Shown here piece after piece: positions 15,020-16,410 of a stretch of DNA of 64,000 nt; position 1 is the stretch's first letter, and every line of letters begins with the position of its first letter. The notes beneath the pieces are model-generated. The model had not been told where the DNA came from and searched no databases. It worked only from the letters and a program-made list of their open reading frames with translations. Source of the stretch: Exiguobacterium sp. FSL W8-0210 (GTDB taxonomy: Bacteria; Bacillota; Bacilli; Exiguobacteriales; Exiguobacteriaceae). The position numbers were made by a program, and so were the translations under genes. The DNA is taken from NCBI RefSeq assembly GCF_038006045.1, contig NZ_JBBOUK010000001.1, positions 1,777,001 to 1,841,000 on the forward strand, read 5' to 3'.

Positions 15020-15048
15020 TTGTAAGCGTTTTCTAAATGAATTATGAT
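15020..15048 (+). promoter_or_regulatory. Sigma-A promoter with overlapping cre, upstream of the unknown gene at 15088
   Basis: TTGTAA (15020-15025), 17-nt spacer, TATGAT (15043-15048). The cre overlaps the -35. Confidence 0.72.
15021..15034. promoter_or_regulatory. Perfect cre (CcpA) site
   Basis: TGTAAGCGTTTTCT matches TGWAARCGYTWNCW at every position and overlaps the -35, the usual geometry for CcpA repression. Confidence 0.7.
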
Positions 15049-15087: not shown

Positions 15088-15573
15088 ATGATTCGACCAC
15101 TTACTCAACTATACAGTGAAGCTGTTGGCACACTCGATCAATGGACGGTATCCGAAATCGTGACACGCGATCAAATTCGGCAAGCTGTTCAGTTGTACGA
15201 TCCATATCAAATGCATACGTCGTATGCTTTGGAACAATTGTTGATTCATGAATTGAGTGAGGCTTGTCAGCATGTCCAAGAACAAGGGCTAACGTTGGCT
15301 GATGCGCAAACAGAGCTTCTCATTCTCTCTGCCTTCCAAAGTGATGCGGGCTATCAAGCAGAGGAAATTCAAGATATGTCTCCCACTGCAATCAAACGGC
15401 ACTTGTCTTCGCTAGACGCAGCCTTCAGCCGACTATTACATCAACTATTCTTACATCAATCGCAACCAGACATCCTCTGTCAGCGATTCATGACGATCCT
15501 TTCAGGTGCGGTCGCCACAAAATGTGCGATCCGTGCTAAACGCCTCAAGGAAGCGACACTTGTTCATCCATAA
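15088..15573 (+). CDS. Unknown protein with a sigma-region-4-like helix-turn-helix segment
   Basis: Encodes 161 residues, soluble and mostly helical. Residues about 75-120 (ELLILSAFQSDAGYQAEEIQ, then MSPTAIKRHLSSLDAAFSRL) have the spacing of a sigma-70 region 4 or LuxR-like helix-turn-helix; this is my reading, not a firm family hit. I do not recognise the protein. AAGGAGG lies 7 nt before the ATG. The promoter carries a perfect cre, so repression by CcpA in rich sugar is predicted. It is monocistronic, ending in a strong terminator shared with a minus-strand unit. Confidence 0.65.
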   Translation: MIRPLTQLYSEAVGTLDQWTVSEIVTRDQIRQAVQLYDPYQMHTSYALEQLLIHELSEACQHVQEQGLTLADAQTELLILSAFQSDAGYQAEEIQDMSPTAIKRHLSSLDAAFSRLLHQLFLHQSQPDILCQRFMTILSGAVATKCAIRAKRLKEATLVHP

Positions 15574-15574
15574 A

Positions 15575-15607
15575 AAAAATCCTGACTCATGTGAGTCAGG
15601 ATTTTTT
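15575..15607. terminator. Bidirectional terminator between the 15088 gene and the minus-strand small transcription unit
   Basis: ATCCTGACTCA and TGAGTCAGGAT arms with eight As on the left and TTTTTT on the right, so it gives a good T-tract in both directions. Confidence 0.88.
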
Positions 15608-15610
15608 CAT

Positions 15611-15724: not shown

Positions 15725-15763
15725 TAAAAAAAAGTGGACCGATTTTCGATTGAAAATCAGTCC
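15725..15763 (-). terminator. Strong terminator of the first small minus-strand transcription unit
   Basis: GGACTGATTTTC and GAAAATCGGTCC arms with AATC loop, then ACTTTTTTTT on the minus strand. It lies about 80 nt beyond the dCMP deaminase stop. Confidence 0.8.
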
Positions 15764-15798
15764 GAATGGAAGAGTGAATAATTACCATGGCAATGCTT
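15725..15798 (-). ncRNA. Candidate small RNA under cre control (about 75 nt)
   Basis: A promoter with a perfect cre (15805-15833) and a strong terminator (15725-15763) frame this short stretch, which has no ribosome site. A 28-codon frame from the ATG at about 15786 has no Shine-Dalgarno sequence. The 5' part has an ATTGCCATGGTAAT near-palindrome, then an unpaired CACTCTTCCATTC region that could pair with targets; target pairing is speculation. The RNA call is an inference from promoter plus terminator geometry. I do not match it to a known family. Confidence 0.5.
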
Positions 15799-15804
15799 GA
15801 TTTC

Positions 15805-15833
15805 ATCATACAATGCAATGGAAGCGTTTACAA
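15805..15833 (-). promoter_or_regulatory. Sigma-A promoter with overlapping cre, downstream of the dCMP deaminase gene
   Basis: On the minus strand, TTGTAA (15828-15833), 17-nt spacer, TATGAT (15805-15810). Both hexamers and the spacer are identical to those of the 15020 promoter. Confidence 0.7.
15819..15832. promoter_or_regulatory. Perfect cre (CcpA) site over the small-RNA promoter
   Basis: Minus-strand TGTAAACGCTTCCA matches TGWAARCGYTWNCW at all positions. Confidence 0.68.
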
Positions 15834-15843
15834 CCCTTTTTCG

Positions 15844-16410
15844 TTAAATTTTTTCAAGAAAATATTCGTTTGCGAGTGGCAAGTGAATGACTTCGATCCC
15901 ACTCTGCCTCATCAGGTTCAACCCGTCCCCGTATTCATACCCTGTCGAATAGACGACCCGATCGATTTTAGAGGCAATCAGCGCCAAACTACATGCATGA
16001 CACGGACTATGGGTGACATAAGCGGTCGCATGACGCGCACTCGTCGAATCGGCTGCCAGCTTACCGAGCGCGTTGATTTCAGCATGAATCTCGTGTTGTT
16101 TCGACCATTCATGGTGTTCTTCTTGATTTTCGCACCGATAAAAAAGAATCCCGTTTCGTTCAATCGATTCTTCAACCACCGGGTGGTCAGGTCGTGATGT
16201 ATAGAGAATACCCTCTTGCTTTAAGTAAATTTCGTTGCAATTCACATGCTGACTAGGTGTTCCGTTTATCCCAATCGAAATCGGCTTTTCATCTTTGACG
16301 ATGACACAGGCAACAGATTTCGAGGCACATTTAGAATGACGATCTGCCATCATCCGTGCGAATAATAACCATGTCGTATCCCATTGCAGCTGTTTCTCTT
16401 CACTTTTCAT
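15844..16410 (-). CDS. Deoxycytidylate deaminase-family protein (dCMP deaminase / ComEB-like)
   Basis: Encodes 188 residues. The zinc-dependent cytidine/deoxycytidylate deaminase motifs are intact: IHAEINAL (His ligand and catalytic Glu, about residues 107-114) and SPCHAC (two Cys ligands, about 134-139). A further Cys/His group (ADRHSKCASKSVACVIV, HVNCNEIYLK) in the N-terminal half matches dCMP deaminases with an extra zinc site. It would convert dCMP to dUMP, feeding ThyA. The ATG follows AAGGAAGG. It is monocistronic; the downstream cre promoter belongs to a separate small unit. Confidence 0.88.
   Translation of the reverse strand: MKSEEKQLQWDTTWLLFARMMADRHSKCASKSVACVIVKDEKPISIGINGTPSQHVNCNEIYLKQEGILYTSRPDHPVVEESIERNGILFYRCENQEEHHEWSKQHEIHAEINALGKLAADSTSARHATAYVTHSPCHACSLALIASKIDRVVYSTGYEYGDGLNLMRQSGIEVIHLPLANEYFLEKI

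Follow-up and report, generated by a model that had tools for sequence, protein, structure and literature searches.

Does the short stretch of DNA that follows a deaminase gene of Exiguobacterium sp. FSL W8-0210 (genome of 3.35 Mb) specify an RNA of its own that responds to carbon source, or is it only the 3' end of its neighbor? A sequence-only reading of the 64,000-nt stretch analyzed here (the window) had proposed a small RNA (sRNA) controlled by CcpA at this place on the minus strand. We examined its anatomy, its conservation and its possible targets.

Anatomy of the unit

The sigma-A-type promoter TTGTAA-N17-TATGAT (15805..15833, minus strand), read from the sequence, has its -35 element TTGTAA at 15833-15828, a spacer of 17 nt and its -10 element TATGAT at 15810-15805. 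The exact 16-mer WTGNAARCGNWWWCAW, which we take to be the 16-mer consensus of the cre (the predicted CcpA site), is present on the plus strand at 15818..15833 and covers the -35 element, with the cre sequence TGTAAACGCTTCCA at 15832-15819. The predicted sRNA of about 73 nt (15726..15798, minus strand, start set by distance from the -10) contains CACTCTTCC (15776-15768, minus strand, read from the sequence) and the proposed seed (pairing) segment ACUCUUCCAUU (15765..15775, minus strand), which is identical at every locus compared. From the predicted fold and the unpaired probabilities, a short AUGG...CCAU stem-loop (15766..15788, minus strand) would present UUCACUCUU. The unit ends in an intrinsic terminator (15726..15763, minus strand) supported by compensatory changes and composed of a 12-bp hairpin plus T8; the hairpin GGACTGATTTTCAATCGAAAATCGGTCC (15763-15736, minus strand) has 12 pairs and a 4-nt loop and is followed by AC and eight Ts at 15733-15726. 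The distance from the -10 to the hairpin is 41 nt, and the predicted RNA length falls from about 73 nt in the window genome to about 60 nt in clade II. The coordinates thus bear out the sequence-only reading of TTGTAA-N17-TATGAT with a perfect cre on the -35 and, about 40 nt later, a hairpin with eight Ts, and its estimate of an RNA of about 75 nt is close to the length predicted here.

Exact WTGNAARCGNWWWCAW occurs once in the 64-kb window versus 0.05 expected (one is seen in 5 of 100 shuffles), and TTGTAAACGNTTNC also occurs once (none in 100 shuffles). Allowing one mismatch there are five cre matches versus 2.4 expected, a number reached by 13 of 100 shuffles and hence not unusual. As one-mismatch matches are ordinary in the window, the cre is not decisive by itself. 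The promoter matches 9 of 12 consensus bases, and with six promoter-like sites in 1.6 kb versus 3.5 in shuffles a promoter alone is ordinary; terminator-like sites numbered two in 1.6 kb versus 1.2 in shuffles. The case for the unit therefore rests on conservation.

Conservation of the unit across Exiguobacteriaceae

We compared 44 loci, 19 from genomes of the GTDB genus and 25 from named Exiguobacterium of both major clades; the two sets overlap and comprise 29 distinct sequences. The named loci were collected via the deaminase gene, the 25 named relatives of which are all Exiguobacterium. A 261-nt region gave one match per genome in 19/19 GTDB-genus genomes. At each of the 44 loci TTGTAAACGYTTNC occurs exactly once, with ACTCTTCCATT and a T run after it; the full 16-mer cre (on either strand) and the 17-nt distance between the promoter elements are likewise retained at all 44. 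The -10 element varies, being TATGAT at 21 loci, TATATT at 15, TATTAT at six and TAAGAT at two. The sequence-only reading had named weak preservation of promoter and terminator among close relatives as one outcome that would count against the RNA, and the loci went the other way: cre, spacing, ACTCTTCCATT and T run stand at every one of them.

The sequence-only reading had also called for a covariance-model search and a comparison of related genomes. A model of the unit built from such loci found a single copy in each of the 38 family genomes (89.9-117.3 bits). Against 299 genomes of the class, in a search run with stricter filters that lose weak matches, the model gave 28 matches, 27 of them to family members and one chance-like. 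The latter, the sole match outside the family (genome G276, 34.7 bits), looks coding-like, lacks a cre and was discarded. Viral contigs contained no exact match to the cre promoter combined with ACTCTTCCATT. Hence, the unit is family-wide and, within the genomes searched, limited to the family.

The two parts of the predicted RNA have diverged in different ways. Among 13 distinct clade I sequences, 34/34 consecutive columns (36-69, which run from the presumed start to the terminator foot) are invariant, and ACTCTTCCATT plus TGCCA is invariant in the 27 rows of the two-clade alignment. Fourfold sites of the deaminase gene are invariant at 1/46 (11 clade I genes), 3/52 (15 clade II genes) and 1/39 (all 26 genes). 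In the clade I terminator stem 98.6% of cells are paired, and in 8 of the 12 pairs both sides have changed; neither that pair count nor the covariation score was reached in 500 shuffles (0/500 each). In the clade II terminator both-side changes affect three of seven pairs (reached in 3/500 shuffles) and the covariation score was again reached in 0/500. The number of pair types was not exceptional (39/500 shuffles in clade I, 432/500 in clade II). On the mixed-clade alignment the RNAalifold consensus was weak (-0.48 kcal/mol), because the terminators of the two clades do not align column by column. Core letters that stay frozen while the stem drifts by paired changes are the signature of a transcribed RNA. 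On this pattern of change, the terminator needs its shape only and the core needs its letters.

The upstream deaminase gene and neighboring elements

The gene upstream of the unit (15844..16410, minus strand) belongs to the dCMP/cytidine deaminase family (PF00383). Its score against the NCBIfam ComEB model is 65 bits, far below the cut-off of 219 bits, so that the name ComEB calls for caution. The frame ends at 15844 and the gap from its stop to TTGTAA is 10 nt; in 21 of the 25 named loci the TAA of TTGTAA doubles as the deaminase stop codon. As a scan for terminator-like sites found none between the deaminase stop and the promoter of the unit, the hairpin of the unit probably also ends the deaminase mRNA, and we judge by position that the terminator is probably common to both. 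The sequence-only reading had called the unit separate. This holds only for its initiation, given the probably shared terminator and a gap of only 10 nt that contains no terminator.

Directly downstream lies a second RNA-like unit (15716-15572, minus strand) with a TTGACA-N17-CATGAT promoter, two tandem hairpins and a terminator. Both hairpins have the same design, a 4-bp stem with an AAYG loop, two 1x1 mismatches and an outer stem. The second hairpin is identical in 18 distinct sequences, and the covariation of the first rests on one sequence. This second unit is found in 19/19 genus loci, is absent at the clade II locus (a statement about that locus only) and has no Rfam match above threshold. 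We considered a decayed sugar-hydrolase gene at this place, and rejected it: the small frame is broken in relatives by a 2-nt indel, and the region folds as the second structured RNA. A convergent gene of 161 aa (15088-15573) has no Pfam or NCBIfam match. Upstream of it (15020-15048, plus strand) TTGTAA-N17-TATGAT occurs a second time, here with a near-cre over the -35 element, and a similar TTGNAAGCG promoter is found in 10/10 clade I named loci. At 15572-15610, a hairpin resembling a terminator, with T runs on both strands, is apparently common to this gene and the second RNA unit. Elsewhere in the window, an Rfam pan motif (RF01749; 47240-47333, minus strand, 60.2 bits) was the only above-threshold match in 64 kb.

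An open pyrimidine segment under predicted CcpA control

Folding of 26 sequences (the window and the 25 named loci) left UUNACUCUU mostly unpaired, with mean probabilities of 0.89-0.99. The adjoining CCAU was partly paired with AUGG (0.25-0.31 unpaired), which gives a small hairpin having the segment in its loop. The stem of this seed stem-loop is invariant within each clade and therefore lies beyond covariation testing. The exposed pyrimidine stretch proposed in the sequence-only reading is consequently fully open in ACUCUU and its 5' flank (UUNACUCUU) but partly closed in CCAU.

A cre placed on the -35 element gives repression when CcpA is active. CcpA is encoded in 38/38 genomes (above the TIGR01481 cut-off), and together with the cre on the -35 this leads us to expect the RNA when glucose is absent. 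We infer transcription, the direction of CcpA control (from the position of the cre) and the antisense mode of action. The reading that we consider probable is a stand-alone CcpA-repressed antisense sRNA of about 73 nt, the seed of which would pair with the ribosome sites of trans-encoded mRNAs. In the proposed mechanism transcription of the sRNA would begin at a promoter of its own, sited where the deaminase gene ends, and stop at the intrinsic terminator. When glucose is present CcpA bound to the -35 cre would block RNA polymerase, and upon glucose exhaustion the sRNA would accumulate. The open UUNACUCUU(CC), in or beside the short AUGG/CCAU stem-loop, would then pair with G/A-rich ribosome sites of the GGAAGAGU type and block translation of the trans-encoded mRNAs, ACUCUUCC being the sRNA letters presumed to face a candidate target.

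Identity of the unit and alternative explanations

A search of Rfam 15 (4227 families) gave nothing above gathering threshold at the locus, only sub-threshold matches. The PyrR and RAGATH-19 matches were set aside, being far below threshold and absent from the four relatives tested. We hold with high confidence that the unit, as its sequence comparisons indicate, is a real and strongly conserved sRNA gene of Exiguobacteriaceae under CcpA that is absent from Rfam. That the sRNA acts on ribosome sites is proposed with moderate confidence, and confidence in any particular mRNA target is low.

Several other explanations of the locus can be weighed against this reading. Cre sites can act as roadblocks, and the hairpin, with no terminator ahead of it, probably ends the deaminase mRNA, so that the locus could be a deaminase terminator plus a cre acting as DNA (a roadblock or CcpA decoy), with an incidental promoter and no functional RNA. 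We think this quite unlikely, for it leaves unexplained the 34 invariant bases between the -10 and the hairpin in clade I, the 11 bases identical in both clades while the stem drifts, and the fixed 17-nt spacing at 44/44 loci. A promoter followed by a terminator would also fit attenuation, the unit then being the leader of a downstream gene, present or lost, and the downstream neighborhood does differ between the clades. However, the minimum-energy folds show no competing antiterminator, and what follows the terminator is the second RNA unit in clade I and a protein gene with its own TATAAT in clade II. The 3' neighbor changes while the unit stays, and thus the unit is not tied to one downstream gene; we regard an attenuator as very unlikely. 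Least credible to us is a short translated frame (MVIIHSS.../MVFYSSI...), which we consider extremely improbable even though all 25 named loci have the AUG of AUGG and a 3-nt difference in length between the clades preserves the frame up to UCUUCCAUU. The sequence-only reading had seen no ribosome site or convincing frame in the unit; indeed no ribosome site precedes the AUG, and the named loci contain no conserved reading frame that we could find. The first stop lies past the T run in 21 of 25 named loci (before or in it in the other four), and in those 21 the transcript would carry no stop. Invariance is equal at the three codon positions, and the 3' part of the frame differs among species because the terminator stem drifts.

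A further possibility accepts a CcpA-repressed sRNA and alters its partners, which would be other sRNAs or a protein (a sponge or decoy) rather than ribosome sites. The published excerpts drawn on here describe the CcpA-repressed RosA of Bacillus subtilis as a sponge and RsaI of Staphylococcus aureus as binding other sRNAs, and we found no mRNA target common to both clades (see below). RosA and RsaI, however, use G-rich regions, whereas the Exiguobacterium RNA has no G-rich unpaired run and exposes a pyrimidine segment. Its duplex with the neighboring second RNA is at chance (-28.7 versus a shuffled mean of -24.9, sd 4.1, the control being a simple base shuffle), and the clade II locus lacks that second RNA. 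We judge a sponge unlikely and retain pairing with ribosome sites as the preferred mode of action.

Search for mRNA targets

Reading of the candidate sites (GGAAGAGT in six genomes, 11-mers in 38) revealed no target gene with a site in both clades. When the 12-mer complement was sought in the genome of the window with one mismatch allowed, 18 places were found including the RNA gene itself, and the other 17 were inspected. One of these falls on a ribosome site, that of a metal ABC permease gene (PF00950). The pairing is not striking, since 5.7% of base shuffles do as well, and we rejected this permease as a general target given that no inspected GGAAGAGT site in the other five genomes was at such a gene.

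The six genomes contain 126 GGAAGAGT matches located 2-11 nt before an ATG, three of them the RNA gene (the reversed pattern gave 72). All places were inspected except G019:C1:1017365 and the three at the RNA gene, as one place plus 19 regions plus 110 site records, some seen twice. Most matches are internal to genes. A crude start test on the 110 site records passed nine; four were discounted (two inside longer frames, one at the edge of its stretch and internal in the ortholog, and one a probable internal start). The five kept and three more from the 19 regions make eight sites that look like real gene starts, with no gene represented in both clade I and clade II. In the window genome these are the metal ABC permease, an SMP-30/gluconolactonase-like gene and a Mur ligase. 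The clade I genome G006 has an amidohydrolase gene and a PTS EIIC gene (PF13303) with the 11-nt complement GGAAGAGTGAA. The clade II genomes G019 and G028 share a site at a different PTS EIIC gene (PF13303), and G028 has another at a DUF389 gene. The two PTS EIIC proteins (clade I versus clade II) are not close relatives, and both genes carry GGAAGAGU just before the start. The clade II PTS EIIC gene (loci L190 and L191) is preceded by a cre-like TGTAAACGRTATCA as well as by the ribosome site GGAAGAGT, and from these letters it is a possible joint target of CcpA and the sRNA.

Across the 38 genomes we searched for AATGGAAGAGT and GGAAGAGTGAA and inspected 40 places, 39 of which coincide at least partly with an open frame on either strand. 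Outside the RNA genes the 11-mer complement AATGGAAGAGT was counted 73 times, versus 23 for the reversed-pattern control, which does not keep codon usage. Two recurring sites were rejected. The 14-mer AATGGAAGAGTGAA of four clade II genomes is antisense to an open frame of >400 codons, and a site common to two clade I genomes (G004 and G009) coincides with a likely -10 (TATAAT) and would fall mostly ahead of the transcript. GGAGGAGT before an ATG was also searched in the six genomes and, among the matches listed, ccpA was examined. The ccpA ribosome site GGAGGAGU pairs, with one G-U, in 19/19 clade II genomes and 0/19 clade I genomes. As the site is confined to clade II, ccpA was rejected as a family-wide target.

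A tentative extension, which we consider doubtful, is that the sRNA serves family-wide as a dedicated RNA arm of carbon catabolite control, one frozen 11-nt segment silencing GGAAGAGU mRNAs when glucose is absent. Leads for such an arm, all from predicted pairing, would be the PTS EIIC genes, the gluconolactonase-like gene and the amidohydrolase gene (NagA-like by eye).

Comparison with known CcpA-repressed sRNAs

The CcpA-repressed base-pairing sRNAs of Firmicutes are a functional class, not one lineage. The Exiguobacterium unit has several traits of the class: its own promoter and an intrinsic terminator conserved as one unit, a cre positioned to block the promoter (the exact 16-mer on the -35 at 44/44 loci), and a conserved open pairing segment (ACTCTTCCATT invariant and ACUCUU mostly unpaired in the folds). 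Unpaired G-rich regions of the kind found in the RosA and RsaI sponges are absent from the 73-nt sequence. Likened by wiring and described features, the sRNA seems to resemble RsaI, RosA, SR1 and especially ArgX, which we compare as far as the cited excerpts describe them.

ArgX of Lactococcus lactis is a 66-nt CcpA-repressed RNA with its own promoter, and a cre near the promoter core, at the 3' end of argR; it has a terminator common with argR and a predicted pairing with the arcC1 ribosome site (PMC6586332). The Exiguobacterium sRNA is likewise a short RNA at the 3' end of a gene, having its own promoter with a cre, predicted CcpA repression and predicted pairing with ribosome sites. It shows the same nesting, with 10 nt between stop and promoter in the window genome, overlap in 21 of 25 named loci, and a sharing of the terminator that is deduced from position. 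Unlike ArgX, it follows a deaminase gene rather than argR, and ArgX is also induced by arginine (PMC6586332). In the excerpt cited, the authors report finding no ArgX homologues in more distant bacteria (PMC6586332). We regard ArgX as the closest precedent in arrangement.

RsaI (RsaOG) of S. aureus is described as stand-alone, CcpA-repressed and derepressed without glucose, and as repressing translation by pairing with the ribosome (Shine-Dalgarno) sites of glcU_2 and fn3K (PMC9266662). The Exiguobacterium sRNA shares with this description its stand-alone form and its predicted CcpA repression and ribosome-site pairing, but RsaI contains G-rich regions and has other sRNAs among its partners (PMC8216469). 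The same excerpt gives RsaI as conserved in Staphylococcus but not in Bacilli (PMC8216469). RosA of B. subtilis is reported to be a CcpA-repressed stand-alone RNA and a G-rich sponge of RoxS and FsrA (PMC8216469, PMC8464778). In contrast to RosA as described there (92-225 nt, cre at -1 to +12), the Exiguobacterium RNA is shorter, its open part is pyrimidine-rich and its cre lies on the -35. SR1 of B. subtilis is a base-pairing sRNA repressed under glycolytic conditions, the CcpA share of which is small (PMC8464778). It differs from the Exiguobacterium sRNA in being 205 nt long and mainly CcpN-controlled, with a cre about 260 bp upstream, and in encoding the peptide SR1P (PMC8464778).

Significance

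In the open-licence literature on Exiguobacterium sRNAs, CcpA and transcriptomes, taken as titles and the starts of abstracts, neither this RNA nor any described sRNA appeared; a bulk sRNA prediction that covers Exiguobacteriaceae exists in a source seen as an excerpt (PMC10837837). As far as the excerpts cited show, CcpA-repressed sRNAs have been described in a few Firmicutes, with RsaI, RosA and ArgX narrow in range. The Exiguobacterium sRNA gene, in contrast, was found in every one of the 38 genomes of an extremophile family that were searched. The strict conservation of its short segment simplifies both the search for targets and tests by mutation. If the sRNA pairs with the clade II ccpA ribosome site, a feedback loop would be closed in that clade. 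If confirmed, the sRNA would suggest that catabolite repression has gained, more than once, an RNA branch encoded at the 3' end of some unrelated gene.
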